Virus record (IMG/VR): IMGVR_UViG_3300010885_076238
Location: 124,001-188,000 of that record
Direction: 5' to 3' (one strand)
Origin: a virus
DNA length: 64,000 nt
Shown: piece after piece, positions 42,912 through 61,213 of the stretch
Layout: every line of letters begins with the position of its first letter
Numbering within the stretch: position 1 is the first letter of the stretch
Made by a program: the position numbers and the translations under genes
Notes under the pieces: model-generated
The model's input: only the letters and a program-made list of their open reading frames with translations
Told to the model about the DNA's origin: nothing
Database searches by the model: none

Positions 42912-43337
42912 ATGGATTTCAAATCATTTGATAAGAAAATAGTTGCAGCAGCTTCTGTAATTTATAATTCTGACAACAAGCTTCTTTTATTAAGAAGAGG
43001 ACCAACAGCTCCTTGGATGCCGGGCAAATGGAATCTTCCTGGTGGCAATATTGATGAAAATGAAAGTGGTTTGCAAGCGGCGAAAAGAGAAGCAAAAGAA
43101 GAAATCAATATTATTATAAATAATGCTCGTAGTTTAGGAATTGTTACTGAACAAGATTGGGGCGTTGCTTTCTTTTGTTGTTTAGATAATGAATGGTCGG
43201 GAAATCCCACATTATCTGTTACTAATGGAATATTAGAAAATGATGATTTAGTATGGGAACTTCCAGAAAGTGCTCTTAAATATTCACTAGTTCCTACGGT
43301 AGATACAGCTATAATCCGATCAATGAGATATTTATGA
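42912..43337 (+). CDS. NUDIX hydrolase (141 aa)
   Basis: The Nudix box GGNIDENESGLQAAKREAKE followed by EINI matches the G-x5-E-x7-R-E-x2-E-E pattern, at about residues 44-66, within a normal-length fold. NUDIX enzymes hydrolyse nucleoside diphosphates linked to another group; the substrate (oxidised nucleotide, NAD, capped RNA or sugar nucleotide) cannot be read from sequence. TATAT-rich DNA lies upstream, without motif A. It overlaps the next gene. Confidence 0.9.
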   Translation: MDFKSFDKKIVAAASVIYNSDNKLLLLRRGPTAPWMPGKWNLPGGNIDENESGLQAAKREAKEEINIIINNARSLGIVTEQDWGVAFFCCLDNEWSGNPTLSVTNGILENDDLVWELPESALKYSLVPTVDTAIIRSMRYL

Positions 43338-44056
43338 TTAACGAAAGCCCAGATGCTATAAAACATAGAGAAGATATCGATAGTCCTTCTTATGGAGATC
43401 AAGACAGCGTAACTTTTTCTTTATTTGATAACTTTACTGTCTACAGCCTAAGATACAACACAAGTCATGGAGACTTATACAAATTTGTAAGAATATACAG
43501 TAAGCCTTCAGACATAGAATTATTTAAGTGGAGTGAGAACAGAGGCAAATATAGTTGGTATCTTGATCCAGAACAATTCAAGAAAAATTATGAAATATAT
43601 CATAAAGGTGAACTAACAGATAACGAAAAGAACAAAATTATAAATTTTGATATTTTTGAATTAGATAGAAGTCCAATACTAAAAGAATTTCCTAGTGTTA
43701 TTCAGGGAAGAGCATGGACCGAGAGTAAAATGATTAGCTTCTGGAATGATTTGGTTTATATAGCTTCTAGAAAAGATGATATAATAAAATTTATTAATTT
43801 AATAGGAGGTAATCCACATGCCTACCAATATGAAATCAAGGATAATTTATATAATTATGATGATTTTGTGTCGGGCAAATATAATGATAATTTAAAATTT
43901 GACCGCACAGTACTTCATACTTTACCCCCAGATAAAAAGGGAGAAGCTTTAAAGAAAATGGGAGCTGCTCCTAAACAGCCAGTTCCTTTGCAGTTCAAAC
44001 AAATGTTGCAAGGTGAGAGTTTTAGAAGTTGGCTGTATAAGCATGAGCAAAAATGA
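43334..44056 (+). CDS. Paralogous phage protein 1 (240 aa)
   Basis: Starts in ATGA overlap with the NUDIX gene. The shared core IQGRAWTESKMISFWNDLVYIA, then GEALKKMGAAPKQPVPLQFK, is also in the next gene (222 aa). A 70-base stretch (43728-43797) is nearly identical to 44388-44457, so duplication or gene conversion was recent. The C-terminus ESFRSWLYKHEQK resembles the N-terminal cargo-like leaders nearby. Function unknown. Confidence 0.65.
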   Translation: MINESPDAIKHREDIDSPSYGDQDSVTFSLFDNFTVYSLRYNTSHGDLYKFVRIYSKPSDIELFKWSENRGKYSWYLDPEQFKKNYEIYHKGELTDNEKNKIINFDIFELDRSPILKEFPSVIQGRAWTESKMISFWNDLVYIASRKDDIIKFINLIGGNPHAYQYEIKDNLYNYDDFVSGKYNDNLKFDRTVLHTLPPDKKGEALKKMGAAPKQPVPLQFKQMLQGESFRSWLYKHEQK

Positions 44057-44721
44057 TTATAAATGAAAATCCAAATAATATAAAAACAGTTGCGAATACT
44101 CATTATGGAGCCTCTGGTGCTACTGCTTTTGTTTTATTTAATAAATTTTATGTGCATAGTGATTGGGCTTGGGCATCTCATGATACTTTATTAAGATATA
44201 TTGCTTTATACATTCAACATGAAAAAAAAGAACTAGCTAATCAATTTAGAGAAAAAAATAAAATTAAGCATATTGGCGATCTAACAGGTGAAGAAGTAGA
44301 TAAACTAAATAGTGAAAGGGATATTGATCGACATATTATTTTAGAAATTTCACCATATGTTATTCAAGGAAGATTGTGGAGAACCACTAAAATGATTAGC
44401 TTCTGGAATGATTTGGTTTATATAGCTTCTAGAAAAAATGATATAATAAAATTTATTGAATCATTAAATAATGATCCTAAAAAATATCAATATGAAATAA
44501 AAGACAAGTTATATGACTATAATCAATTTTTATCTGGAAAGTACACGGATGATTTAGATTTTGACCCAGAGGTTGTTCACATGCTTCCTCCAGATAAAAA
44601 GGGAGAAGCTTTGAAGAAAATGGGAGTACGTCCTAAAGCTCCAGTTCCTTTACAGTTCAAACAAATGGTTCAGGGTGAGAGTTTTAGAAGTTGGCTACAA
44701 AAAGGAGAAAAAAATGGTTAA
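44053..44721 (+). CDS. Paralogous phage protein 2 (222 aa)
   Basis: ATGA overlap with paralog 1. Begins IINENPNNIKTVANTHYGAS and keeps the core IQGRLWRTTKMISFWNDLVY. Ends ESFRSWLQKGEKNG. The two genes differ in the first half and match in the second. Confidence 0.65.
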   Translation: MIINENPNNIKTVANTHYGASGATAFVLFNKFYVHSDWAWASHDTLLRYIALYIQHEKKELANQFREKNKIKHIGDLTGEEVDKLNSERDIDRHIILEISPYVIQGRLWRTTKMISFWNDLVYIASRKNDIIKFIESLNNDPKKYQYEIKDKLYDYNQFLSGKYTDDLDFDPEVVHMLPPDKKGEALKKMGVRPKAPVPLQFKQMVQGESFRSWLQKGEKNG

Positions 44722-44893
44722 TTTTTATGATTTTGAAATGATTATGGAAGGCAAGGGAGATGATGTTGTTAAATGTTCTTGTAAATGCAAAGCATGTAAA
44801 TATAATTTTTGTAAAAATTGCAGTTGCAAAGATTGTAAATGTGAAGGTTGCAGATGTGAGAGTAATATTGGAAAAAATAAGAAAAATAACTAA
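44714..44893 (+). CDS. Metallothionein-like Cys-rich protein (59 aa)
   Basis: AAGGAGA precedes ATG 44714. The start VNFYDFEMIMEGKG is a weak form of the local leader. Residues 20-48 contain 11 Cys in CxC and CxxC spacing (CSCKCKACKYNFCKNCSCKD, CKCEGCRC), with Lys but almost no aromatics. This is typical of metal-binding metallothioneins. It probably sequesters Zn, Cu or Cd, perhaps inside the virion. Confidence 0.6.
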   Translation: MVNFYDFEMIMEGKGDDVVKCSCKCKACKYNFCKNCSCKDCKCEGCRCESNIGKNKKNN

Positions 44894-44901
44894 TTTATAG
44901 C

Positions 44902-45513
44902 ATGACTTATATATTTCAGCATATTCCTAGAACAGGCGGCATAACGTTATTATCTATTGTCAGGGAGGTTTATGATAATAATGATATAATTATAGATATT
45001 GACGGGAATAACTTGTGTTACAAAATGCATGATCTTTTTTATTTACAAAAGTCTCCTAAGGCTATTTTTGGACATTTACCGTTTGGTATTCATAAATTAT
45101 TAGACGGTGAATTTTCTTATATAACGGTAATGAGAGATCCGGTAGAAAGAATTAAGAGTGTTATAAATCATTTGAACGAATCAAATATTTTAAATGTTGA
45201 AGAATATTTAAAAAATTATAGTCAGAATGATATGACAAAAGCATTTGTTTATAAGCCACACACCAAGAATGAAGAAGATCACTTAGAAGAAGCTAAAGAT
45301 AACATTAAAAAATATTATACTATTGGATTTACTTCTAATTTTAAAACATTTGTAAAGTCTTTAGGTAAAAAACTAGGTTGGACTCCTTTTTATTATATTA
45401 ATAAAAATGAAAGTAGACCCTTGGTTGATTTTACAAAAAATGATATTAAAGAAATAAAAGAAAAAAATCAATTAGATATAAAGTTATATGAATGGGCCAA
45501 AAAAGAATTTTAA
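44902..45513 (+). CDS. Sulfotransferase-family protein (203 aa)
   Basis: The start IFQHIPRTGGITLLSIV carries the 5'-phosphosulfate loop, and MRDPVERIKSVINHL is the 3'-phosphate loop of PAPS-dependent sulfotransferases (Sulfotransfer_2-like). Short but complete in motifs. With the second sulfotransferase at 49817 and several glycosyltransferases, it may sulfate glycans on the virion or host surface. Confidence 0.75.
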   Translation: MTYIFQHIPRTGGITLLSIVREVYDNNDIIIDIDGNNLCYKMHDLFYLQKSPKAIFGHLPFGIHKLLDGEFSYITVMRDPVERIKSVINHLNESNILNVEEYLKNYSQNDMTKAFVYKPHTKNEEDHLEEAKDNIKKYYTIGFTSNFKTFVKSLGKKLGWTPFYYINKNESRPLVDFTKNDIKEIKEKNQLDIKLYEWAKKEF

Positions 45514-45577
45514 TTTGATATATAATTTTGGAAAAAAAAGGTAAAGATTTTGGTCGCATCACGCCAGAGGTAATTTT

Positions 45578-45706
45578 ATGTCGTCTCAAATATTAGAAGT
45601 TTGCGTTCTTGTGATAAGTATTAGTTTCACATCTGTTGTGGCTATGGGAAGCTTATGCATGGTTTATGGTTTACTTATGGTGTTATTTGGGAAAGATGTT
45701 GATTAA
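45578..45706 (+). CDS. Small membrane protein (42 aa)
   Basis: CAGAGG lies before the ATG. One long hydrophobic stretch (ILEVCVLVISISFTSVVAMG, SLCMVYGLLMVLFG), one or two spans. Confidence 0.55.
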   Translation: MSSQILEVCVLVISISFTSVVAMGSLCMVYGLLMVLFGKDVD

Positions 45707-45774
45707 ATTGTGGTTTCCGCCTACTAAAAATATTTATTTGAAAAAGACTAGATAAAGAACACTGAGGAGAAAAA

Positions 45775-46323
45775 ATGAAAAATTTTCACGAATGGTTAGA
45801 AGAAAAACACCCTGAATCCCTAGAAGAGGGAATGTTTGGGGACTATATGAAAAAGGTTGCACTCCCAGTAACAGCTGCGATGGGGATGACAGCAGCACTC
45901 AGCGGAAACGTACCGCAAACAAACAACAATAAGCCCGCCGTCGTCAGGGGTGTTGGACACGCTCAAGGAGCTTCAATGAAGCCACAGTCACAGCTACAAG
46001 ATCTATACGGCCCCGAGCGAGATGATAATGGAAGACGATGGACGGATAATGAAGAATTCATGGACTATGCCGTACAGCAAGTTGAAAGACAGCTTGGGGG
46101 ATCGCAGAGCAGCAGAATACCCAAACCAGAAGGATGGGACGATTTGAGCGACGACGCACAGTATCAAATATATAACCATGCCATCTACGCACTCGTTCAG
46201 CAACATGGCGTAAAAGACAAGGACGAACTTCAGAGTATGTTTGACAGGGAGACAGCTCAAGGAAGATATGACGGATCAAATCCTTATAGAATCAATTTCA
46301 ATCCTGCTCAATTCAATCGTTGA
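45775..46323 (+). CDS. Putative packaged protein with KNFHEWLEE leader (182 aa)
   Basis: AGGAGA precedes the ATG. The N-terminus (MKNFHEWLEEKHPESLEEG) is the clearest copy of the local leader. Next comes a hydrophobic helix (VALPVTAAMGMTAALSG), a low-complexity linker and a helical end (WDDLSDDAQYQIYNHAIYAL). The leader would be removed by a prohead protease if this is a T4-type capsid-targeting sequence. Its codon usage is more GC-rich than its neighbours'. Confidence 0.6.
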   Translation: MKNFHEWLEEKHPESLEEGMFGDYMKKVALPVTAAMGMTAALSGNVPQTNNNKPAVVRGVGHAQGASMKPQSQLQDLYGPERDDNGRRWTDNEEFMDYAVQQVERQLGGSQSSRIPKPEGWDDLSDDAQYQIYNHAIYALVQQHGVKDKDELQSMFDRETAQGRYDGSNPYRINFNPAQFNR

Positions 46324-46698
46324 ATGAAAACCTTCTATCAATATATTTCAGAAAATCATTTTGATCAATCATTATACACAATTAATGGTAAAAATTATAA
46401 AGTTTCTGAGCTTGCCGATTGGGCAAAGAAAAATCTACGTCCAGTTGCTTTGAATATCTCAGACATTCAAAGTAAGTATATTGATGCAAAAGGTTTGTTT
46501 ATAGACGTAGAAAAAGGCGAAGATTGGTACGAAAGATCTATGAATGCAAATCTATCGTTTCCGATTTTAGTGTTGGAAAATCCAGATAACAAGTGGGAAA
46601 TTATAGATGGAAACCATAGAGTCTGGAAAGCTTGGAAAACAGGAATGCAAACTATTAATGCATATCTAATTAATCCAAATTCTTTACAGCAAATTTAA
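46324..46698 (+). CDS. ParB/sulfiredoxin-like domain protein with KTFYQYISE leader (124 aa)
   Basis: It begins immediately after the previous stop. The first 10 residues (MKTFYQYISE) closely resemble the T4 internal-protein leader. The rest has the ParB/Srx signature FPILVLENPDNKWEIIDGNH followed by RVWKAWKTG, the loop that binds nucleotide or acts in DNA cleavage. Active residues look intact (DGNHR). A packaged enzyme injected with the DNA is plausible. Confidence 0.65.
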   Translation: MKTFYQYISENHFDQSLYTINGKNYKVSELADWAKKNLRPVALNISDIQSKYIDAKGLFIDVEKGEDWYERSMNANLSFPILVLENPDNKWEIIDGNHRVWKAWKTGMQTINAYLINPNSLQQI

Positions 46699-46791
46699 AT
46701 AAATTCCCATTTGGATAAAAAAATAATAGTTGTCAGTCGATTACGCCAATTAATAATTATTTATAAGTATGCTTAGCTGCAAGGAGGTTAA

Positions 46792-47403
46792 ATGGCATAC
46801 AGTCAACTAGGTCAAGACGAATGGGTGGTTGGATTATACGGTAAAAACCCAGGATTTTTTGTTGACGTTGGTTTTAATGATGGAATAGTATTTTCTAATA
46901 CTTATCTTCTTGAAAAAAAGGGTTGGATTGGCATAGGAATAGATCCATTTCCTTTTAATTATAAAAACAGACCCAGAACAATGATCTATGAAGATCTGGT
47001 TTATGACAAGTCGAACATTACTGTTGATGTTTGTGTTTGTGATGTTTATACTGGCGTTTTTGATGACATTCGCCGCCACAAAGAAAAAACTGTTGGCAAA
47101 CCCATGGTGAGTTTAGTAACAAAGACTTTAGAGTCTGTGCTAGATGTTGCAAATTGTCCTAAGTTTATAGAATATTTATCATTAGACACTGAGGGTTCGG
47201 AGCATAAGATATTATCTTCTTTTGATTTTAATAAATATTGTTTTGGTTGTATAACGGTTGAGCATAATCACGAGAAAGAAAAACGAAAAAATATTAGAAA
47301 TAAACTAGAAGAAAATGGATATGAAATTTACAAGCAAGTAAAATTTGATGACTGGTACATCAAGTCTAGTATGAAAGAATATTTCAGTAAAAACCTACTA
47401 TGA
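46792..47403 (+). CDS. FkbM-family methyltransferase (203 aa)
   Basis: AAGGAGG precedes the ATG. SQLGQDEWVV, the SAM-binding strand FFVDVGFNDG, then YLLEKKGWIGIGIDPF and EYLSLDTEGSEHKIL are FkbM hallmarks. These enzymes O-methylate sugars or polyketides. Adjacent glycosyltransferase-like and sulfotransferase genes suggest a glycan substrate. Confidence 0.85.
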   Translation: MAYSQLGQDEWVVGLYGKNPGFFVDVGFNDGIVFSNTYLLEKKGWIGIGIDPFPFNYKNRPRTMIYEDLVYDKSNITVDVCVCDVYTGVFDDIRRHKEKTVGKPMVSLVTKTLESVLDVANCPKFIEYLSLDTEGSEHKILSSFDFNKYCFGCITVEHNHEKEKRKNIRNKLEENGYEIYKQVKFDDWYIKSSMKEYFSKNLL

Positions 47404-47410
47404 TATTTTC

Positions 47411-48139
47411 ATGAACAAAGTTTATTATCATACGTTTGCTCCTTCTGAGAATTCCGTTAATATTATTATTGATTATTTTAAGAAATGTTTAGTTGACAAT
47501 TTTTTTAATAAAATAGATCAATTTAATGTTATACTCACAGGTGATTTTCAACAAATAGCTTATAATGAGATGAAGAAGTTGTCAGATGATAAAAAAATTA
47601 ATTTTATTATAAAGGAAAAGGCTTCTGAGGGTGAAACTTTGCTGCTTCTTTATGACGAAGCTTCTAATGAGGATAAAATTTTATATTTTCATTCGAAAGG
47701 AGTAACGCAGATGAATAGTTTTTGTTTTAATAATGTAAAAGCTTGGTCGAATAAATTGCTATATTTTTTAGTAGACAAGGCAGAAGACTGTTTAAATTTC
47801 TTAGATAATTATGATTTAGTTGGAGCTAATTATTGGGGAGAACACACAACAGATGATTGTCACAAGAGTTGCAATCAGGATAAAAAGCCTCCTCCTCATT
47901 TTTCTGGTAATTTTTGGTGGACGAGGGGCGATTATATAAAAAAGCTTTCTAGGCCGGAGAACTTACAACGTGATTCTCACATAAATGGAAAAACGGATCA
48001 GGACCCTGAGTTCTGGATTTTTTCTACTAGACCGATTAGAATAGCAGCTATGAGCAATATTAAAATAAATCCTTATATTGATCCTAGTCTTTTTGAATCT
48101 TACAAGGATGAAACTCCCACATTTTCATTAATTAATTAA
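47411..48139 (+). CDS. Glycosyltransferase-like protein (242 aa)
   Basis: Motifs ILYFHSKGVTQMNSFC, YDLVGANYWGE and PPPHFSGNFWWTRGDYIKKL resemble bacterial and viral proteins annotated as glycosyltransferase or rhamnan-synthesis-like. No clear DxD is seen. It follows the FkbM gene by 7 bases and may act on the same glycan. Confidence 0.6.
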   Translation: MNKVYYHTFAPSENSVNIIIDYFKKCLVDNFFNKIDQFNVILTGDFQQIAYNEMKKLSDDKKINFIIKEKASEGETLLLLYDEASNEDKILYFHSKGVTQMNSFCFNNVKAWSNKLLYFLVDKAEDCLNFLDNYDLVGANYWGEHTTDDCHKSCNQDKKPPPHFSGNFWWTRGDYIKKLSRPENLQRDSHINGKTDQDPEFWIFSTRPIRIAAMSNIKINPYIDPSLFESYKDETPTFSLIN

Positions 48140-48140
48140 T

Positions 48141-48380
48141 ATGAAACAAATAGAAACAGAGATGAGTCTTGCCAAGAAGTATTTGAATGGGGATTACACA
48201 GACGTGCAATTGAATTACTGGGTAGTTCAGAATAAATTTGACAAACAAAAAATTGAAAATCTTATAGATTGTTTGAGAATGGCAGAGCCTTTTTTGGTCG
48301 CTACTAAATTAATTATAGCTTTTATTTTGATAAATTATTTATTGGGATTTGCTTTATCTGTTATTTATTTTGTCCAATAA
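48141..48380 (+). CDS. Small membrane protein (79 aa)
   Basis: It starts 1 base after the previous stop. A helical soluble start (MSLAKKYLNGDYTDVQLNYW) is followed by one span (LIIAFILINYLLGFALSVIY) at the C-terminus, so probably tail-anchored. Confidence 0.6.
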   Translation: MKQIETEMSLAKKYLNGDYTDVQLNYWVVQNKFDKQKIENLIDCLRMAEPFLVATKLIIAFILINYLLGFALSVIYFVQ

Positions 48381-48455
48381 TGGAAAAAATTTAATTTTAT
48401 CTTGGTGGCAATTTCATAAATATCTATTAGTACCAACAAGGTACAAGGAGGTATT

Positions 48456-48857
48456 ATGAAAAGGTTACTTGTGGGCTTATTTTTAGTCCTAGGATCAATT
48501 TCAGTTGTTTCTTCTGCTCAGGAGAGAATCATAAAGGTTGTTGATTTGGAAATCACATCTTATGAAGATTCATTAGTTTTGGCTAAGAATCAAGATAAAA
48601 AAGTTCTAGTTTTCTTTTCGGCAGATTATTGTGGATGGTGCAAAAAGCAAAAGGATGTTTTTTTAGAATCTGCTGTTGTGGATAAGATTAATGACTATGT
48701 TATTTGCTACGTTGACATGAGTAAAAAAGATTTGGTGTCAAAGTATAATGTTAGAACTATTCCAGCATATTTTGTTATTGATAAAAATGAAAAAATAATT
48801 AAGAAAAATATTGGCTATAAAGAAAAGAATGATTTTATTAGATGGCTAGACAACTAA
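48456..48857 (+). CDS. Exported thioredoxin-like protein, CGWC (133 aa)
   Basis: AAGGAGG precedes the ATG. A signal peptide (KRLLVGLFLVLGSISVVSSA) precedes a thioredoxin fold with FFSADYCGWCKKQ and a cis-Pro region (VRTIPAYFVID). The active-site pair C-x-x-C is intact. It probably works outside the cytoplasm on disulfides, perhaps for the exported caspase-like protein encoded next. Confidence 0.85.
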   Translation: MKRLLVGLFLVLGSISVVSSAQERIIKVVDLEITSYEDSLVLAKNQDKKVLVFFSADYCGWCKKQKDVFLESAVVDKINDYVICYVDMSKKDLVSKYNVRTIPAYFVIDKNEKIIKKNIGYKEKNDFIRWLDN

Positions 48858-48875
48858 TATTTTTTATACTATAAT
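48847..48875 (+). promoter_or_regulatory. Sigma70-like promoter
   Basis: TAGACA, 17 bases, TATAAT, just upstream of the caspase-like gene. Confidence 0.5.
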
Positions 48876-48893
48876 CTATTGAAAGGATTATTC

Positions 48894-49820
48894 ATGAATA
48901 AGTTTTTATTTATATTTATTATTTTATTATCGAGGCCTGTTTTCTCTCAGGAGAAGACAGGCTTTGCTATTGATCCAAATGCAAATAATGTAGCTGCATT
49001 GTTTACAATGACAGATGAAGGCGGAAGAACTAAGAATTTAGACTTAATGGACAGCATATTTAAAGATGGATCTTTAGGATTTGAATGTCAACGTTACCAT
49101 AATGTTTCTTCTGTATTTATTTATAAAAAATTAACAGAGCTAGCTTTAAAATTAGAAGAGGACGCGACCTTACTGTTATATTTTAATAGTCATGGAGGAG
49201 GAAGCGGCGACAGGTTTGCTATGACCGCTCAGGGTGGGAGTTTTAAATTTAGTAAAGCTTTAGAATCATTGGGCAAATCTAATAAAAAAATAAAAAGGCT
49301 TATATTCCTTGTGGATACTTGTCATGCTGCTGGAAGTATACAGGATAGTTTAAAGCAGGATGGGGAATTATTAAAAAACATTCAATCAGCAAAGCCTACT
49401 GATTATCTTCCTGAACTTTCTGACGCGGCAGTTTATAATCAGCGTCCATTTAGATCTATATTTGATATTAAAAATAATAAATTAGATTTCGGTGAAAATA
49501 GTGGGATTTACAGTGAAATACTAATCATTAGTTCTTCTAGTGTTGAGGATCTTTCTATAAGGGGAGCATTTGCTTCTAGGTTGGCAACAACTTTTGGAAA
49601 AATTAAAGATAATAAGGAAGTAACAGTTGGTCAGTTTTTGAAAAAGTTTGCAGATAGTCATTTGGCAAGTGGTCAACAACCTTATTACAAGATCCTTCCT
49701 GATAATTCCATGTTTGATGAATTATTATTTGGAATACCTTATGCTAGATTGATTCCGATTGTTGATTGGGACAATGACAATAAAAATAAATCTGATTTCA
49801 TCCCTTTGCCGAGATTATGA
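48894..49820 (+). CDS. Exported caspase-like (C14-type) cysteine peptidase (308 aa)
   Basis: GAAAGG lies 8 bases before ATG 48894; an upstream TTG is less likely. A signal peptide (NKFLFIFIILLSRPVFSQ) is followed by a caspase/metacaspase-like fold. LLLYFNSHGGGSG holds the catalytic His and RLIFLVDTCHAAGS the catalytic Cys, in the usual order and spacing. SSSSVEDLSIRGAFASRL is the later core. Metacaspase-like enzymes cut after basic residues. A secreted version encoded by a phage is unusual; it could process envelope proteins, act in lysis or counter a host defence. Confidence 0.75.
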   Translation: MNKFLFIFIILLSRPVFSQEKTGFAIDPNANNVAALFTMTDEGGRTKNLDLMDSIFKDGSLGFECQRYHNVSSVFIYKKLTELALKLEEDATLLLYFNSHGGGSGDRFAMTAQGGSFKFSKALESLGKSNKKIKRLIFLVDTCHAAGSIQDSLKQDGELLKNIQSAKPTDYLPELSDAAVYNQRPFRSIFDIKNNKLDFGENSGIYSEILIISSSSVEDLSIRGAFASRLATTFGKIKDNKEVTVGQFLKKFADSHLASGQQPYYKILPDNSMFDELLFGIPYARLIPIVDWDNDNKNKSDFIPLPRL

Positions 49821-50428
49821 ACAAAGTTTTTCAAATTGGATTTAATAAATGTGCAACGACTTCTTTTTTCTTGTTATTTGGAAAAACAACAAGACCAAGT
49901 GTAAAGTCTATCCATTGGGATGTTGGAAGACTTGCTTATAAAATTCACAGAAACCATCTAGAAAACAAGCCTCTTCTTACTGGTTATGAGGAGTACACTT
50001 TTTTTAGTGACATAGAGGGGCCAATAGACGGAGACAAAAATTCTCCTTTGATATATGTTCATAAAGAATATTATAAAGATTTAGATAAACAATATCCAGA
50101 TAGTAAATTTATATTGAACACAAGAAATGTTTATGATTGGCTAGAAAGTAGAAAAAAACATTTAAATAGAAAAGACTATCAAATAAGATCGTATTTTGAA
50201 AGATGTAAATTTCATTATAAATTAAATGATCATCAGCTAGTTGAGAAATGGCTTTTGGAATGGGAAGATCATCATAACGATGTTTTAAATTATTTTAAAG
50301 ATAGGCCAGACGATTTATTGATTTATAATATTGATCATGATAATTTAGATAAAATTAAAAAATTCTTTCCCGAAATAAACTTTAGGTGCAAAGAATTTCC
50401 TTGGTCTAAAAAATTTAAGTGCTACTAG
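49817..50428 (+). CDS. Sulfotransferase-family protein (203 aa)
   Basis: ATGA overlap with the previous gene. FQIGFNKCATTSFFLLF is the PAPS 5'-phosphosulfate loop (usual GxxKxGTTS with Cys-Ala here), and FILNTRNVYDWLESRKKHL is the 3'-phosphate loop. A second sulfotransferase lies at 44902. Substrate unknown. Confidence 0.75.
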   Translation: MNKVFQIGFNKCATTSFFLLFGKTTRPSVKSIHWDVGRLAYKIHRNHLENKPLLTGYEEYTFFSDIEGPIDGDKNSPLIYVHKEYYKDLDKQYPDSKFILNTRNVYDWLESRKKHLNRKDYQIRSYFERCKFHYKLNDHQLVEKWLLEWEDHHNDVLNYFKDRPDDLLIYNIDHDNLDKIKKFFPEINFRCKEFPWSKKFKCY

Positions 50429-52428
50429 TAATAAGCATTTTGTGGTATGATGCCATTTCCAAATGAATCAAATGTAACACGATATATTCCATCAGGATGT
50501 CTAGTAGGGTAATCCCAATAATCTTCATTTCTACTATTTAGTGGATCTGGTCCTTTGTAATAGCCAGCTTTTAGCCATTCGTCTTCAGTAGGAACCCTAT
50601 ACAATGCATTTTGATTTGCTTGTATGTTTGGCTGATATCCATTCAATGTGTAAGCTCCATCTAAAGTATACTCAAGACCAATAGGAGTTTGTCCCAGAAC
50701 GGCCATATTATGTAACCAATTAGCAAATTTTACAGCACTAAACCAATCTATAAAAACAACAGGTTTATTTCCCATATTTGTTTTTACAGAATATTTACTT
50801 CCAATAGAAGCAGAATTATTAAATAATATTCCCCCAGTGATATCACTACTCATTTTGGAATTATAAAAGTCATATCTGTTTCCTTCATGATCGGCTGCGT
50901 TCAAAAATAATACGTATTCGGCATTTGTTACCGGGTATTTCATTATTTTGTACTCATAATCAACTTGTCCAATCAGCTTGTAGGCGTATCCGTATTGAGC
51001 TTGTCCTCCAACATTATTGGCAGTATAATTTAAATAAGGCGGATTTCCCAAATCTCCGACCGTTAAGAATTCATTTGATCCAGACGTGAAAGAATGATAA
51101 TCTAAAGGATCAGTTGAACTGGACAATCTGAATCCAATAACATCACTTTTAATTGGATAACTATTTACCGTTCCGTCCTCATTTAAATTAATTCCTGGGT
51201 TGTTGAAGAACCTGGCGTTGGTGTGTCCCATAGAAACGTTGCCTCCTGCCCAATGTCCGCTTCTAATTCCTCTTTGATATTGTCGGTTGAACATTTCTAG
51301 TGCATCATTCCATTCGTAAACAAGACCTCCTTGATCATACGTTCCGTAATATGAAGATCCTCCATTTGTTCCTACTGTGGTGATTTTATTAGATCTACCC
51401 AGAACACCTATATTTGAGCAGTGCGGTCCGCGATTACTACCACTAAAAGTAAACTGAACCGTATCGCTTACAACAGAATTAGCTCCTGATGCTATTACAA
51501 ATCTATATCTATCTCTCGTTACAGAATCAAAATAGTCTGCGTTATTTGTGCCAAAAGATTGGCTTCGAGTTGCTTCGAAAATGCTACCATTTTGAAGAAG
51601 ATTAGAGGCTATTGTTGTGTTTTGATCTACAAATTCTCCCAAGCCATTTGTTTGCTTTTGTGTGGTGACTGTTGTGGTGCTTGGAGATGTGGTTGTAAAT
51701 CTGACAGTAAAAACCCCACGGTATTCATCGATTGAAGAATTTTGTGGTTGATTTACTATTGTTATGCTAGCTCCCATCGGAGTTTGGGTTGGCGTGGGCG
51801 TTGGTGTGATTGTATCTAAGCATTCTAAGTAATGAAATCCATCGGTAATAGATTTAATTTTATATGTTCCATTATACACTCTAGGGTCCATAATGTCCCA
51901 GACAGGGTGTGTAGGATCCAAATCTTTTTCTGCATTTGAGATGACCACTGATTCTCCGACAATAAATCCTAAATTGCCAATGGTACTATCAATGCTATTA
52001 TACAATGCAAAATAGGGATCTATGAGCAGATCCTCTCGATTAACAATATCCAAGCTGCCATGACAACCCCAATCATTAGAGACTCCTTGAATTATAATTC
52101 CACTGGTTTGCCCTGTGATAGTAGCTCTGGAATACAAATTGTTGTTATTTGGCCATTGATCAAGATTACAATTATCTTCTGGCGTTAGATTTTTCGTTGG
52201 CGTCAATGTAGGGGTTGGTGTTGGTGTTGGCCTTAAGCTTTCAATTACGCAGTTTGAATCATATTCTTCAAAGTACAAATGAACAGTTCCGTACCAATCA
52301 TCAGTAGTCCATAGATAGGGTATAATTTGATATCCCAAGTCTATAGGCTCCCCAAGAGAGTCAGGAAAAAATAATATATGGGCCAACTTTCCATTATAAT
52401 TGTTTGATGATATTTTTATTGTTTGCAT
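50425..52428 (-). CDS. Large surface protein with rearranged FGE/SUMF1 domain (667 aa)
   Basis: Minus strand, converging on the sulfotransferase. Order: N-terminal beta domain, TPTPTPTLTPT linker, a second domain, another TPTPTPTQTP linker, an Ig-like part (about 225-330), then an FGE (sulfatase-modifying factor, C-type-lectin-like) domain. In that domain, the segment normally at the end (ITTVGTNGGSSYYGTYDQGG, RGIRSGHWAGGN, DVIGFRLSSS) comes before the segment normally at the start (YKIMKYPVTNAEYVLFLNAA, IDWFSAVKFANWLHN, YRVPTEDEWLKAGYYKG). It is probably a virion fibre or host-binding protein, not an active FGE. Confidence 0.75.
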   Translation of the reverse strand: MQTIKISSNNYNGKLAHILFFPDSLGEPIDLGYQIIPYLWTTDDWYGTVHLYFEEYDSNCVIESLRPTPTPTPTLTPTKNLTPEDNCNLDQWPNNNNLYSRATITGQTSGIIIQGVSNDWGCHGSLDIVNREDLLIDPYFALYNSIDSTIGNLGFIVGESVVISNAEKDLDPTHPVWDIMDPRVYNGTYKIKSITDGFHYLECLDTITPTPTPTQTPMGASITIVNQPQNSSIDEYRGVFTVRFTTTSPSTTTVTTQKQTNGLGEFVDQNTTIASNLLQNGSIFEATRSQSFGTNNADYFDSVTRDRYRFVIASGANSVVSDTVQFTFSGSNRGPHCSNIGVLGRSNKITTVGTNGGSSYYGTYDQGGLVYEWNDALEMFNRQYQRGIRSGHWAGGNVSMGHTNARFFNNPGINLNEDGTVNSYPIKSDVIGFRLSSSTDPLDYHSFTSGSNEFLTVGDLGNPPYLNYTANNVGGQAQYGYAYKLIGQVDYEYKIMKYPVTNAEYVLFLNAADHEGNRYDFYNSKMSSDITGGILFNNSASIGSKYSVKTNMGNKPVVFIDWFSAVKFANWLHNMAVLGQTPIGLEYTLDGAYTLNGYQPNIQANQNALYRVPTEDEWLKAGYYKGPDPLNSRNEDYWDYPTRHPDGIYRVTFDSFGNGIIPQNAYY

Positions 52429-52485
52429 AATGAATTAATTTATTGAATTTATCAATACAATATATATATAATTTGGAGGTAATTT

Positions 52486-52695
52486 ATGAAATTTTCACTA
52501 TGGCTCGAAAGAAGAAATCAAAAATCAGCTACAAAAGAACCAATTAAAAAGAGCGCTTTAGAACTAGCTAAAAGAGCAGCCAGTAAAAATATCCATGATA
52601 TGCAACATGGAAGAGCTGGTGCGATGGAGCCTAGAACAATAAATAAGAAATCAAGAGGCGAACAAAATAGACGAGCCATAAGAGACCAGTATTAA
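52486..52695 (+). CDS. Small basic protein with KFSLWLERR leader (69 aa)
   Basis: TGGAGG precedes the ATG. The leader MKFSLWLERRNQKS is followed by a basic, unstructured-looking body (ATKEPIKKSALELAKRAASK and KKSRGEQNRRAIRDQY). Basic packaged proteins of this kind may bind phage DNA. Confidence 0.6.
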   Translation: MKFSLWLERRNQKSATKEPIKKSALELAKRAASKNIHDMQHGRAGAMEPRTINKKSRGEQNRRAIRDQY

Positions 52696-52719
52696 AATGC
52701 TCGTGTTCGGAACAATTTC

Positions 52720-52968
52720 CTAGGAGATTTTCATTGATTTTCTAAGTATTTCAGCTGCCTTTAGTATAGTTTGAGCTTCTTCTTGTGATATGTTTAGCAT
52801 TCCTAAAGCCTGAACAACTCCTCCATCAATTTTATTAGGAGTGAAATCTATCAGATTAAGATCTAATTTTGAATATAAGTTGTCGTTTTTAACAACTCCA
52901 TTTATTATTCTTGGTTTTATATTTTCTACTGATCCTGGGCCTGTGCCTTCTGTTGTTGTTGCTGTCAT
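52720..52968 (-). CDS. Hypothetical protein (82 aa)
   Basis: AAAGGAAAAAAAATGAC is the start region on the minus strand. The product has a flexible start (TATTTEGTGPGSVENIKPRI) and a helical end (MLNISQEEAQTILKAAEILR). Function unknown. Confidence 0.55.
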   Translation of the reverse strand: MTATTTEGTGPGSVENIKPRIINGVVKNDNLYSKLDLNLIDFTPNKIDGGVVQALGMLNISQEEAQTILKAAEILRKSMKIS

Positions 52969-53088
52969 TTTTTTTCCTTTATAATTTTTCCTGTTGCATT
53001 TATTTATTGCGCTTTGGCCAAAAATTACAAACCAAATATTTTATTATGAATAAATATTTTAAACAATACGACATGAGGTTTGTATTCC

Positions 53089-53286
53089 ATGACAGAACTA
53101 AGCAGAATGCAATTAATACAAAAAGCAGATGAAATATGTGAATTTGCTAGAAAAATTTTTAATAATAAGCGAGCAGAGTTATTAAGAAAAGCAGCACAAT
53201 TTTATAAAGAAGCTACATTATCAGTTATGGCTGAAAAGGTTGAAAAAGAAGCCGCTGATTGGGAAATGTGGGAAAAAGGAGAGTGA
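53089..53286 (+). CDS. Small helical protein (65 aa)
   Basis: GAGG lies 9 bases before ATG 53089. Product: TELSRMQLIQKADEICEFAR, then an Ala/Lys/Glu-rich helix. Function unknown. Confidence 0.55.
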   Translation: MTELSRMQLIQKADEICEFARKIFNNKRAELLRKAAQFYKEATLSVMAEKVEKEAADWEMWEKGE

Positions 53287-53323
53287 TTTTAACTTTCGGA
53301 AAATTAAATACTAGAGTATTTGT

Positions 53324-53470
53324 ATGAACGAACAGCAAATCAAAGATAAAATATCAGAAATAAGAAGTTATATAATATCTGAATATTGCAGTGTAGATCA
53401 AGCTAAAGAACTGCATCAAGAAATCAAGAAATATGAAGATATGTTAAAAAAAGTTCTCGAAGATAAATAG
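53324..53470 (+). CDS. Small helical protein (48 aa)
   Basis: No clear ribosome-binding site. Product: NEQQIKDKISEIRSYIISEY, then KYEDMLKKVLEDK, a two-helix hairpin. Marginal. Confidence 0.45.
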   Translation: MNEQQIKDKISEIRSYIISEYCSVDQAKELHQEIKKYEDMLKKVLEDK

Positions 53471-53490
53471 AAATTTTTAATCTTTACTTA

Positions 53491-54054
53491 TTATACAAAA
53501 ATTTCACCTTCGGCGTCGAAGCCGATATTTTGAGCCATAAGTTGTTTGTGTGTTGCTAAAATATCACTGACTGGTTGTAATGAAAAGTTGTTTTGCAATA
53601 ATCGCCAAGTGTTTTTTATTTGCGATTGTTTGTGTGCTACTGGGGGTTTTTCTGTGAAGAACTCTCCTTGTCCTTCCCGTCCCAATTCTTCAAAATCAGT
53701 TTTTTTAAATGTTGATATCCAAGGTTTGTAGTCTTTAACAACTTGTACATCTTGTTGTCTAATATACAAAGTTTTCTTTGGTTTAGTAGGAACCAGTATC
53801 CAAGGCATATTCCTAGGTATTAGGTAAGATACAACATTGTGATATTTTCCAGCAAAAGCTCCTGATCTAAAACGTCCGGGTGTTGTTCCTTGTGGTGTTT
53901 GTGCCCAATTTGGAACTTCGTTTGGAACAGATGTTGGACCACTTTCACCATTGTTTGTAATATAAAATTGTCTAAGATTAGAGTGGTCCCCAAAATCTCT
54001 TTTTTCTGCGTCTATTCTGAATACACGATTTTCAAGCCATAATTTAAAGTTCAT
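53491..54054 (-). CDS. Putative packaged protein with NFKLWLENR leader (187 aa)
   Basis: ATG at 54054 gives the leader MNFKLWLENRVFRIDAEK; upstream in-frame TTG and ATG codons overlap the neighbouring gene. The body (DFGDHSNLRQFYITNNGESG, YLIPRNMPWILVPTKPKKTL) is not recognised. It lies in a minus-strand run of four genes (53491-54873), three with the leader. Confidence 0.65.
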   Translation of the reverse strand: MNFKLWLENRVFRIDAEKRDFGDHSNLRQFYITNNGESGPTSVPNEVPNWAQTPQGTTPGRFRSGAFAGKYHNVVSYLIPRNMPWILVPTKPKKTLYIRQQDVQVVKDYKPWISTFKKTDFEELGREGQGEFFTEKPPVAHKQSQIKNTWRLLQNNFSLQPVSDILATHKQLMAQNIGFDAEGEIFV

Positions 54055-54058
54055 AATT

Positions 54059-54274
54059 TTATAAAATATAAGCTTCACCATTTTCAATTAATTTCAATAT
54101 GAAATCGTAAGCTTTTCCTGAGTCTTTTCTTTCCATTTTTCTAATCTTATTATGATAAATTGAATCAACGATTATTGTTTTTCGTTCTCCATTTATATTA
54201 ATGAGTATTCTTCCGTCTTTTGAATAACCGGTAAAGAGTACATTTTCATTTATAAAATCACGAAAGCTTTTCAT
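54059..54274 (-). CDS. Putative packaged protein with KSFRDFINE leader (71 aa)
   Basis: Leader MKSFRDFINENVLF, then a beta-rich domain (GYSKDGRILININGERKTII). It overlaps the gene upstream of it by 17 bases. Function unknown. Confidence 0.6.
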   Translation of the reverse strand: MKSFRDFINENVLFTGYSKDGRILININGERKTIIVDSIYHNKIRKMERKDSGKAYDFILKLIENGEAYIL

Positions 54275-54464
54275 TATTTTTTAGTCTTTTTAGTAAACAA
54301 ATACAAGTTGGAAACTGTGCGTTCTCAGAATAATTTGATCCGCTAGATGGCATTCCTGTTTCACGAACTGGTTCCCATCCTTCTTCCAATAGTTTTTCAA
54401 GACTTTTTATAGAAGAGTTTTTTTCGTCTAAAACTAAAATTTGATATTTATATTCATATTCCAT
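54258..54464 (-). CDS. Hypothetical protein (68 aa)
   Basis: Start chosen at 54464 (EYEYKYQILVLDEKNSSIKS), overlapping the end of the gene upstream by 11 bases; the frame is open further up. A conserved-looking core is EKLLEEGWEPVRETG, resembling small DUF4177-like proteins (from memory). Confidence 0.55.
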   Translation of the reverse strand: MEYEYKYQILVLDEKNSSIKSLEKLLEEGWEPVRETGMPSSGSNYSENAQFPTCICLLKRLKNNEKLS

Positions 54465-54873
54465 ATTGATCGTAATCTTCCTCTCCTGGGTGTTTTGAAA
54501 TTCTACTATCAAGTTGTTTTTCTACATCTTGCTTCCATCCCATTTTATCTATATATTCATTTGTTTTTTTTATTAAATGATCTATATGATCCATGTAAGT
54601 GTTATAAGCTAATCTAGCACTCATCTTTTTTTTATGATCATGTGATCCTGCTGAGTTTGAGTGATCAATATCTTCTTGAGACATTTTAATCATTTCTAAT
54701 TCATCAGCATCTTCACCAAGACCTAACACTCTTAATTTTCTTACAAGATTATTATGATAGCTCTTATCTTGATAAACACCTTTATTTGGTCGGATATCAT
54801 CCGCTTCCAATAAATGAAAAAAAAGGTCAACCCATAAATCTTTTTTATCAAGCCATTCATAAAAGTTTTGCAT
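54454..54873 (-). CDS. Putative packaged protein with QNFYEWLDK leader (139 aa)
   Basis: Leader MQNFYEWLDKKDLWVDLF, then a charged helical body (LGLGEDADELEMIKMSQEDI, HDHKKKMSARLAYNTYMDHI). Several His/Asp pairs could bind metal. First gene of the minus-strand run. Confidence 0.65.
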   Translation of the reverse strand: MQNFYEWLDKKDLWVDLFFHLLEADDIRPNKGVYQDKSYHNNLVRKLRVLGLGEDADELEMIKMSQEDIDHSNSAGSHDHKKKMSARLAYNTYMDHIDHLIKKTNEYIDKMGWKQDVEKQLDSRISKHPGEEDYDQYGI

Positions 54874-54929
54874 ACATTATATATAATTTAATGATTAATT
54901 AATATGTTCGCATTTATTTCGGAGAGATG

Positions 54930-55178
54930 ATGAGTGCCAAAAATTTTAGTTTTAAATTATGGTTGGAAGAAAACGCAGCACCAGCACCAGCACCAGCACC
55001 AGCACCAACTTCATCAACACCATCATCAACACAAACTTCGGATTCTGGATCTACCCTTTCTAAGGACATAGCAAAGGTGCCGACCAAAGTGGGATGCAGC
55101 ACTGTTAGTTGTTGCAGTAAAGATTTTTTCAGAAATTGGCATTACAAAAAAAAGAGAAAAAAGAGGAAGAAAAAATGA
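54930..55178 (+). CDS. Putative packaged protein with NFSFKLWLEE leader and Ala-Pro repeat (82 aa)
   Basis: GGAGAG precedes two ATGs; 54930 is chosen. The leader SAKNFSFKLWLEENAA leads into an (Ala-Pro)n linker, a Ser/Thr stretch, a Cys cluster (GCSTVSCCS) and a very basic end (HYKKKRKKRKKK). The GCACCA repeat encoding Ala-Pro is a likely slippage tract. Confidence 0.55.
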   Translation: MSAKNFSFKLWLEENAAPAPAPAPAPTSSTPSSTQTSDSGSTLSKDIAKVPTKVGCSTVSCCSKDFFRNWHYKKKRKKRKKK

Positions 55179-55990
55179 AAACGGGTTTCTGTTTTACAGG
55201 AGAAGGAGCTAGAGGAGCAATACAAGCAGGAATAGCCTTGGGTTTGCATAATCAAGGCATAAATGCTGACTTTACAATTGGAATATCATCAGGATCTATT
55301 TGTGCTGCTTCATATGCGTATCTAGGACCTAAAGGATTAGCTGAAATGTGGTCTAATGTTAATAATATTTTTGATGTTTTTGGAATTAATTATAATTTAA
55401 TTGGCAAAACAGGACTATTGAATCAGAAGCCAATGCAAAAAATCTTGCAAAAAGCGATGGAAAACGAACCAATATGTGAAAGCGTTGTTATTAGAATGAA
55501 TATAGAAGATGGTTATTTAGACTATGTGTCAAATAAAGATGTATCTTCTAGCGAATTCGCAGAAGCAGTTTTAGGAAGCGTAGCCATTACTGCTTTAGTA
55601 GAAGATAGAAATGGCTGGGTAGATGCTGGGAGTCGTCAAATAGCCCCTCTAGATCAATGTATAAGGGCAGGTTGTGATAATATCTATGTGATTATGGGTA
55701 GGCCTCTTCATTTGCCTCCTTGGCAAAAACCTAAAGGTTTATTTAAATTATTTAATATGGCATTTAGGGCGTTCGATATAACCCTCTATGAAATAATGAT
55801 TAGAGATATAAATAGTTGCATAAGGGACAAGTCACACCCCGATTTCAAAAATGTAAATATTTTTTTAGTAGAGCCTAAAGAATTATTTTATGAAAGCGTT
55901 GAATTTGCCAAATGCAAAAAAGGCGTTGTTTATGGGACAACAGAATACAACAGACATGATAAAAAAGGATTGAGAAAATTTATAAAATGA
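55175..55990 (+). CDS. Patatin-like phospholipase (271 aa)
   Basis: GAGGAAG precedes ATG 55175, which overlaps the previous stop. The oxyanion loop is GEGARGAIQAGI, the nucleophile elbow GISSGS (G-x-S-x-G, about residue 43) and the catalytic Asp lies in WVDAGS. The Ser-Asp dyad is intact. Patatins hydrolyse membrane lipids; a phage copy may aid lysis, exit or entry. Confidence 0.85.
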   Translation: MKTGFCFTGEGARGAIQAGIALGLHNQGINADFTIGISSGSICAASYAYLGPKGLAEMWSNVNNIFDVFGINYNLIGKTGLLNQKPMQKILQKAMENEPICESVVIRMNIEDGYLDYVSNKDVSSSEFAEAVLGSVAITALVEDRNGWVDAGSRQIAPLDQCIRAGCDNIYVIMGRPLHLPPWQKPKGLFKLFNMAFRAFDITLYEIMIRDINSCIRDKSHPDFKNVNIFLVEPKELFYESVEFAKCKKGVVYGTTEYNRHDKKGLRKFIK

Positions 55991-56253
55991 ACTTCAAAGA
56001 ATGGCTTATGAAAGAAGGTTCTAATACCGGATCTAAAACTGGTCTGTACCCTTTGGGATACGGAGGCGTAGGTTTGTATCCTCCATCATGGTACATAACA
56101 AGAAGCGCAGATGCAATTTATTATTTCACAATTGATGAAAGAATATATAAATCTAAGGATGGAGGTCTTTTTGATATTAGTCATATTCCAGGCAATAATA
56201 TAAAACAAAACTCTGGCGAGGGTGGATCTTGGAACATTACGAAAATAAAATAA
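55987..56253 (+). CDS. Putative packaged protein with NFKEWLMKE leader (88 aa)
   Basis: ATGA overlap with the patatin gene. Leader MNFKEWLMKEGSNTG, then a Gly/Tyr-rich small domain (GLYPLGYGGVGLYPPSWYIT). It may be co-packaged with the lipase. Confidence 0.6.
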   Translation: MNFKEWLMKEGSNTGSKTGLYPLGYGGVGLYPPSWYITRSADAIYYFTIDERIYKSKDGGLFDISHIPGNNIKQNSGEGGSWNITKIK

Positions 56254-60862: not shown

Positions 60863-60864
60863 AG

Positions 60865-61213
60865 TGGAGTCGAGGGGAGTCGAACCCCTGTCCGTAAGCG
60901 TACTCAATACGGCCTCTACACGTTTGTTTCATTGTTCATAAGACTTCATTAACCACAATGAACAAAGGTCTTTGAGTCTTTCAACCTATTTTCTCATATT
61001 GGGCTAAGTTGACCAGTCCAATACCAGCAGGATTTTACATCAAACTTTTGGACGCTTCCCGCGTGGCTTCCTAAGTTCGTGGTTGCCTTCTCAGGCAGCC
61101 ATTGCGTAACTATTTGTGCCGGTTAAGGCTTTAGTCGATTTTTACGAGGCCATCGACCAACCTCGACGTGCCACCAATATCTCCTATCACTACGTCGATA
61201 CCATTACGACCCC
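60865..61213 (-). ncRNA. ssrA: tmRNA (transfer-messenger RNA), 349 nt
   Basis: Minus strand. Ends pair as a tRNA-Ala-like acceptor (GGGGTCG/CGACTCC, including the G3-U70 alanine signal, discriminator A), with T arm AGGGG-TTCGACT-CCCCT. The tag reading frame at 61091-61120 reads GGC ACA AAT AGT TAC GCA ATG GCT GCC TGA, giving a tag of about GTNSYAMAA and ending in Ala-Ala as bacterial tags do. tmRNA rescues stalled ribosomes and marks the nascent peptide for proteolysis. A phage copy could keep translation running, or retag host proteins. Confidence 0.9.

Follow-up and report, generated by a model that had tools for sequence, protein, structure and literature searches.

The window (the whole stretch of DNA analysed here, 64,000 nucleotides long) contains nine genes between 44714 and 56253 whose products begin with a short leader of similar form. 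Nine such starts had been proposed in the original prediction, and the open reading frame (ORF) listing confirms all of them, each at, or no more than one codon from, the coordinate given there. The gene at 44714..44893 (+) encodes a Cys-rich protein of 59 aa that begins MVNFYDFEMIMEGK (leader MVNFYDFEMIMEG, followed by an IME|G site; ribosome binding site aaaaaggagaaaaaaATG); its predicted "metallothionein-like" character is backed solely by the Cys-rich sequence. Its leader is the variant MxNFYxFxxI[LM]E, which is also present in G000 at 118521- (MINFYEFQQILE|A) and 121098- (MINFYKFYNILE|S). The gene at 45775..46323 (+) encodes a 182-aa protein without known domain that begins MKNFHEWLEEK (leader MKNFHEWLEEKHPESLEE|G; ribosome binding site gaggagaaaaaATG), and its leader has the best score, 18.7 bits, with the held-out profile described below. 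The 124-aa product of 46324..46698 (+) begins MKTFYQYISEN (leader MKTFYQYISE). The "ParB-like" label proposed for it is unconfirmed: a DGNHR motif is present, no Pfam family was matched, and the only matches are to PHROG families of unknown function (phrog_17560 over residues 15–122). A basic protein of 69 aa (52486..52695, +) begins MKFSLWLERRN (leader MKFSLWLERR).

Three of the genes are on the opposite strand: 53491..54054 (-), a 187-aa protein with leader MNFKLWLENR, whose homolog in phage LR756511 (31% identity) begins MLNFKGWWEN; 54059..54274 (-), a 71-aa protein beginning MKSFRDFINEN, whose leader MKSFRDFINE is by eye the nearest to phage T4 MKTYQEFIAE; and 54454..54873 (-), a 139-aa protein beginning MQNFYEWLDKK (leader MQNFYEWLDK), with an LLE|A site further on. 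The 83-aa protein encoded at 54927..55178 (+) begins MMSAKNFSFKLWLEENAAPAPAP (M(M)SAKNFSFKLWLEEN in the ORF listing, from 54927/54930), and its syntenic counterpart in the related genome G002 begins MKFSEWIKIKEQAAAAVPAAPAP. The last gene, 55987..56253 (+), encodes an 88-aa protein that begins MNFKEWLMKEG; its start overlaps the stop of the gene before it by 4 bp, and the G002 ortholog retains the leader as MNFKEWLVKEG. Shine-Dalgarno-like sequences lie immediately 5' of 44714, 45775, 52486 and 54927. The gene caller used for the counts below was a quick one, which missed 54927 and assigned 55987 a downstream start.

All-versus-all BLASTP of the nine proteins found only residues 1–12 in common, apart from a known paralog pair. 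No homologs were found in an IMG/VR search for loci related to the 45775, 46324 and 44053 products, and an 18-kb query had no megablast match among annotated phages. Just upstream of the first leader gene are two + strand paralogs, of 240 aa (43334..44056) and 222 aa (44053..44721), which, as predicted, have ESFRSWLxK-type C-termini (GESFRSWLYKHEQK / ESFRSWLYKHEQK and GESFRSWLQKGEKNG / ESFRSWLQKGEKNG, respectively). The end of the first is a candidate C-terminal form of the motif; such ends are only two-fold enriched (21 vs 9.9), and a C-terminal second form of the signal is no more than a possible hypothesis.

Enrichment and detachability of the leader

The columns of the leader profile are F, then W/F/Y, then L/M/V/I; these anchors were also part of the seed pattern, and their offset varies in some members. 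When the profile was trained on other phages only, it identified 15 carriers among the 298 called genes of the 204-kb record, where 1.5 were expected (p = 8e-11), 40 among the 961 genes of the 595-kb phage LR756511 (4.3 expected) and 12 among the 169 of G002 (0.7 expected). With profiles trained elsewhere, the excess is ten-fold in this record and nine-fold in LR756511, whose gene set differs largely, and p ranges from 1e-9 to 1e-31. The simpler pattern F..W[LIV] within the first residues occurs 7 times in this record, with 0.2–0.4 expected, and 18 times in LR756511, with 0.6–1.5 expected. Additional carriers elsewhere in the genome had been predicted and many were found (G000 13992+, 95004+, 99067-, 117183+, 118521-, 121098-, 193322-, 194071- and 196177+). 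LR756501, 502, 504 and 508 were the intended negative controls; because gp23-like proteins were found in all four, phiKZ was chosen instead, and none of the 100 phiKZ genes tested carries the leader. The carrier count includes false positives, since some regex matches belong to conserved folds; one of these, MSIDFDRFLSWAE, is part of a conserved fold in seven genomes. The presence of the leader on otherwise unrelated proteins is nonetheless a real observation.

The leader can also be shown to be detachable. Profile matches to HicA, NADAR and AAA_33 begin at residues 21, 19 and 28, respectively, of the carrier proteins and at position 1–2 of the profile, so that the leader precedes a complete domain. 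In the nucleotidyltransferase family M1 and F4 are invariant in 7 members and the linker of 15–30 residues is hypervariable; orthologs keep the leader while their linkers diverge. The AlphaFold2 model of this record's nucleotidyltransferase has a lone helix at residues 4–13, low confidence over residues 10–31 and the fold from about residue 38; confidence for the leader is low. One leader-bearing hydrolase has a leaderless paralog 3 kb away (E 1.5e-19). The putative cargo in this record comprises small unknown proteins, HicA, an alpha/beta hydrolase and a poly(A)-polymerase/CCA-type nucleotidyltransferase, and in relatives it includes NADAR, a HAD RNA-repair phosphatase, an AAA_33 kinase, a tRNA-ligase-type cyclic phosphodiesterase, a C39 peptidase and DUF3293. 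An ADP-ribosyltransferase had been suspected at G002 5957- from a YHGT motif, and was dropped when Pfam, PHROGs and PDB searches gave no support.

Relationship to T4 internal proteins and head genes

IPI, IPII and IPIII are known T4 capsid-targeting-sequence (CTS) proteins. With T4 kept out of training, ranking of 227 T4 N-termini by the profile placed gp61.1, IPII, IPIII and IPI at ranks 1–4, and only the first three of these reached 7 bits; gp61.1, whose N-terminus reads MKTFKEFIKE, is an overlooked candidate in T4 itself. A first version of the profile that fixed F at the first anchor put IPII and IPIII at ranks 11–12, and the top four ranks were obtained when F/Y was allowed and genomes were held out. 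The T4 internal proteins in AF158101 begin MKTYQEFIAE|A and MKTFKEF... Mutagenesis of the T4 CTS has implicated residues 4 and 7 in targeting and 8 and 10 in processing (PMC9026906), and the conserved leader positions F4, W/F7 and L/I8 coincide with these. The leader is like a CTS in being at the extreme N-terminus, about 10 residues long and on proteins without other similarity, in having aromatics at the targeting positions 4 and 7 and an aliphatic residue at 8, and in that its profile finds the T4 internal proteins blind.

T4-type cleavage sites, [LI]xE|[AGS], occur behind the leaders 18 times, vs 6.5 in shuffled sequences (none of 2000 shuffles reached this number), and D, K and reversed controls are at chance. 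This enrichment is a property of the set; within the 22 residues that follow, a canonical site occurs in only about 20% of carriers, and none is present after the leaders of window carriers 46324, 52486, 54054- and 54274-.

A T4 gp21-like protease had also been predicted, and this held in relatives and not in this record. Pfam S77 (gp21-type) and gp23 profiles have no match in the record because it is a genome fragment without head genes. In LR756511 the gp21 S77 gene adjoins gp23 (E 7e-28 and 5e-87), and a gp22-like scaffold is encoded at 525018–525950. In G006 and G009, whose marker protein is 65–69% identical to this record's, a gp21-type (Peptidase_S77) protease gene is beside a gp23-type capsid gene; the pairing of protease and shell expected with a CTS is present in these three relatives and not in the fragment itself. 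The protease is present too in G014–G018, which were found via the capsid gene, and this capsid protein is encoded by 370 IMG/VR stretches.

Interpretation of the leader and comparison with known systems

We think it likely that the leader is a T4-type CTS and that it serves a clade of huge phages whose heads are of the T4 type. The original capsid-targeting reading is supported by the top four ranks of the T4 proteins, the E-dependent site enrichment, the further carriers and the protease in relatives; virion location and trimming remain inferred. In the proposed mechanism, the N-terminus would form a short amphipathic helix, its aromatic anchors being F near position 4 and W/F/Y three residues further on, with L/I after them. 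This helix would bind a gp22-like scaffold core during prohead assembly, and any protein bearing it would be enclosed as the gp23-type shell forms. A gp21-type protease would then cut after the glutamate just past the leader ([LI]xE|[AGS]) on at least some carriers, and the freed cargo would be injected together with the DNA. The binding to the core, the packaging, the cleavage, the injection and what the cargo does are all inferences. Two points that count against the reading are that no virion proteome is available for these uncultured phages and that this record itself has neither gp21 nor gp23.

The leader could instead be a docking helix for another phage structure (neck, tail, inner membrane or replication compartment), with recruitment to a place other than the capsid. 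By itself the motif is a generic amphipathic helix, and the 196177 MKFSSFIDIK family (9/9 orthologs), which are conserved short-linker proteins, could be structural. Against this, the leader fits the T4 CTS at the residues identified by mutagenesis and ranks the T4 internal proteins at the top, E-specific sites are enriched behind it, it is found in phages with gp21/gp23 genes, and it is absent from the tested genes of phiKZ, whose head-protein targeting scheme differs; we consider a docking role unlikely. Even less probable is an N-terminal regulatory tag (a degron or a chaperone/adaptor site) that restrains late or toxic proteins and is unrelated to the head. At least one cargo has a toxin-type domain (HicA) that would need control before release, but most carriers are not toxin-like, and such a tag leaves the T4 match, the E|[AGS] enrichment and the co-occurrence with gp21/gp23 head genes unexplained. 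Chance selection of N-terminal aromatic/acidic helices from a large genome surely accounts for certain single matches (about 1.5 are expected in this record); the size and significance of the excess in two differing gene sets and the retention of the leader by orthologs with diverged linkers all but exclude it for anything beyond individual weak members.

If the leader is a CTS, each huge phage probably has an expanded version of the system with tens of cargo proteins, some of them RNA-processing enzymes, and a large and varied collection of enzymes made beforehand probably enters the host along with the phage DNA, although both packaging and injection are inferred. A bolder reading, which we regard as less likely than not, is that huge phages fill their T4-type heads with tens of proteins as a modular first-strike proteome, in which an RNA/tRNA-repair kit (AAA_33 kinase, HAD_SAK_1 phosphatase, tRNA-ligase-type cyclic phosphodiesterase and poly(A)/CCA-type nucleotidyltransferase) and NAD/ADP-ribose enzymes (NADAR, NUDIX) would counter host RNA cleavage or NAD-based defences before phage gene expression, and in which some cargoes would carry a C-terminal signal (SFxxWL near the end). 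For most huge-phage genes, neither function nor timing is known. With a readable tag, those that are probably virion-carried and act at time zero could be marked across many genomes at once. The tag predicts that proteins for anti-defence and RNA repair are injected, each of which can be tested singly, and it may supply short packaging signals, probably portable ones, for the heads of very large phages (candidate leaders MKNFHEWLEEKHPESLEEG and MKTFNEWLKNRVLSEGN).

Among known systems, the phiKZ and SPN3US head-protein propeptides (PMC5694885) are similar in being from giant phages with an S77-type prohead protease that cuts after Glu and with injected head proteins. Many of those propeptides are longer than 100 residues, with an AxE motif in SPN3US, and phiKZ lacks the leader in the genes tested; a long propeptide of this type, without common leader, does not describe the present leaders, which are about 10–20 residues long and have a common consensus. 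The N-terminal signal of phage P1 DarB, an injected anti-restriction protein, is sufficient to package a reporter (PMC9024508), but it is >9 and <30 residues long and the Dar proteins have no common consensus. The T-even internal protein repertoires and injected anti-restriction proteins (PMC12373910; Repoila et al. 1994 cited there) are likewise variable sets of small proteins known by their leader alone, accessory and with fast turnover; those, of which at least 10 are reported, are mostly small unknowns, whereas here the leader is on whole enzyme domains, whose anti-defence activity is untested. Closest is the CTS of T4 IPI, IPII and IPIII (Mullaney and Black 1996, reviewed in PMC9026906), with which the leader has in common about 10 N-terminal residues, aromatics at 4 and 7, an aliphatic residue at 8 and often E10, carriers unrelated past the leader, and occurrence in a clade that has a gp21-type protease and a gp23-type capsid; LxE/IxE cleavage sites follow it in part of the carriers. 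It differs in its preferred anchors (Phe rather than Tyr at the first, Trp rather than Phe at the second), in an offset that shifts by up to 4 residues, and in a possible C-terminal form. There are 12–40 carriers per record, compared with three in T4, and they include recognisable enzymes; the internal-protein strategy, which in T4 serves three small proteins, would in these phages extend to a large enzyme set.

The leader in the window and the rest of the record

All nine unrelated proteins that the original prediction described as beginning with a short leader of the MxxFxxWLEE type are present in the window (starts at 44714, 45775, 46324, 52486, 54054(-), 54274(-), 54873(-), 54927/54930 and 55987); Shine-Dalgarno-like sequences are clear at four of these starts, and that at 55987 overlaps the stop of the preceding gene. 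The claim that they have nothing else in common also held, as residues 1–12 were the only shared part when the proteins were compared against each other. The window spans bases 124001–188000 of a 204,311 bp virus record, G000, which is classed as linear and is therefore probably a fragment. A scan of the record found further carriers at record positions 95004 (+, MKTFNEWLKNRVLSEG), 99067 (-, MEFKTWLQEK), 117183 (+, MTTFKEWLWNK), 193322 (-, MKSFKKFLES), 194071 (-, MKKFSEWIQIKEA), 13992 (+, MKFKDFINKK) and 196177 (+, MKFSSFIDIK). A variant leader, MxNFYxFxxI[LM]E/[AGS], is present at window 44714 (+) and at 118521 (-) and 121098 (-) of the record.

Other genes were seen in the same window. A leaderless Patatin-like phospholipase (55175–55990 (+), E 3.4e-10) is directly flanked by two carriers, and sulfotransferase-like proteins (44902–45513 and 49817–50428 (+)), an FkbM methyltransferase (46792–47403 (+)) and an FGE-sulfatase-type domain protein (50425–52428 (-)) are interspersed with carriers. 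The phage also encodes a caspase-like Peptidase_C14 protein with an apparent signal peptide (48894–49820 (+), E 3.9e-9) and, among 13 tRNAs in the window, a tmRNA with the tag GTNSYAMAA (60864–61213 (-)). Window positions 1–42800 (124.0–166.8 kb of the record) form an abrupt block of GC 0.40–0.52, with 0.25–0.36 on either side; coding density is low at 155–165 kb, and carriers are nearly absent (1/68 versus 14/230 elsewhere in G000). This block could be an imported island or an assembly chimera.

Enrichment and detachability of the leader

Simple patterns, measured against shuffled N-termini, column-shuffled N-termini and internal positions, gave a large excess of leaders in G000 and in LR756511, an unannotated 595-kb huge phage reached through a marker protein 45% identical. 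When the profile for each genome was trained without that genome, carriers numbered 15/298 in G000 (1.5 expected), 40/961 in LR756511 (4.3 expected) and, in the relatives G014, G015 and G002, 18/789, 18/612 and 12/169 (2.2, 1.9 and 0.7 expected), while none of 100 N-termini of the control phage phiKZ matched. Because genes were predicted by a quick script based on codon usage, their starts and numbers are approximate. Paralogs break the independence between genes that the Poisson p-values assume, and orthologs of tested carriers are present in some training genomes. The 735-kb phage LR756501.1 has FDEFINES/FTEFLKDK-type starts at 130798 (+) and 135730 (-), and the leader may thus reach other huge-phage groups.

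The domains behind the leader are diverse: HicA toxin, alpha/beta hydrolase and nucleotidyltransferase in G000; NADAR, HAD_SAK_1, tRNA_lig_CPD and a weak, below-cut-off CxxCxxCC match in LR756511; AAA_33 and GP88 in G006; a ParB C-terminal domain in G002; and C39 peptidase, NIF-type phosphatase and DUF3293 (with a near-threshold SAM-lyase match) in G014. An RNA-repair theme is suggestive, but these enzymes, whose activities are inferred, are scattered over different phages.

HicA, NADAR and AAA_33 each match from the start of the profile, with the domain beginning right after the leader. A paralog of the leader-bearing alpha/beta hydrolase lies 3 kb from it and has no leader. Seven diverged members of a poly(A)-polymerase/CCA-type family (Pfam PolyA_pol, E 6e-18) keep M1 and F4, and the linker behind the leader differs among them in length and sequence. 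An AlphaFold2 model of the G000 member predicts a helix at 4–13, low-confidence residues and a fold from about residue 38; with a mean pLDDT of 74.6 and just six sequences, its placement of the leader is unreliable. Across genomes, the leader is kept in 81 of 134 homolog pairs of carrier bodies (<80% identity), although these pairs are not mutually independent.

Putative processing sites and head genes

In the 22 residues behind 123 distinct leaders, [LI]xE[AGS] occurs in 18, versus 6.5 in composition-preserving shuffles (0/2000 shuffles reached 18); in the same segments, [LIV] patterns with D or K, or reversed, were at chance level. The motif is of the type cut by the T4 prohead protease gp21; cleavage at these sites is inferred from sequence alone. 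Most carriers show no canonical site, which leaves room for partial trimming or a wider specificity.

A gp21-like protease is found in relatives and is absent from G000. The LR756511 gene order is large-terminase-like, portal-like (both labelled by position and sequence only), gp21-type Peptidase_S77 (E 7e-28), a coiled-coil gp22-like (scaffold) ORF and gp23-type capsid (E 5e-87). Two [LI]xE/[AG] sites are present at the start of its capsid protein, MSANAKFLNE/ARKVEETWAQTGLLE/G. The gp21-type and gp23-type pair is also present in G006 and G009 (relatives of G000 by marker protein, 65–69% identical), and G014–G018 have the protease gene. Neither gene is in the 204,311 bp of G000, as expected of a probable fragment, and the link to the head machinery therefore rests on relatives. 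LR756511 also has a second, diverged Peptidase_S77 gene distant from the head module (242240–243133 (-) of LR756511.1, E 3.5e-9), which recalls the protease paralog reported for SPN3US.

Comparison with T4 and other known systems

T4 capsid-targeting sequences (CTSs) need only 10 residues, of which 4 and 7 act in targeting and 8 and 10 in processing, and the cargo is freed inside the head and then injected (PMC9026906). The sequence evidence for the huge-phage leader agrees with this scheme; packaging, cleavage and injection are inferred. With a profile trained without T4, the top four of 227 T4 N-termini were gp61.1, IPII, IPIII and IPI. Their scores are modest in absolute terms because T4 has Tyr and Phe where huge phages favour Phe and Trp, and the match thus stands on rank, not count. 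The best-scoring of them, gp61.1 (AF158101 18966–19130 (-)), starts MKTFKEFIKE and is possibly an unrecognised T4 internal protein.

A possible C-terminal form of the motif is seen in two paralogs, the products of window 43334 and 44053, which end in ESFRSWL. Like ends are found in G009, G014 and G015, a G006 protein (7377 (+)) has a similar end plus an N-terminal leader, and an LR756511 NUDIX protein ends in HSFKEWLSQRI. C-terminal trimming is known or expected for T4 Alt and gp21 (PMC9026906); the motif is enriched just two-fold overall, so its C-terminal form remains a hypothesis.

Long propeptides are known in phiKZ-like giants (PMC5694885). In the open-access literature searched (subscription papers lay outside the search), we saw neither a T4-type leader described for huge phages nor enzyme cargo as broad as that inferred here. 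CTSs and sets of internal proteins are already known from T-even phages, and the huge-phage leader is therefore a variation on a known system rather than a new kind.
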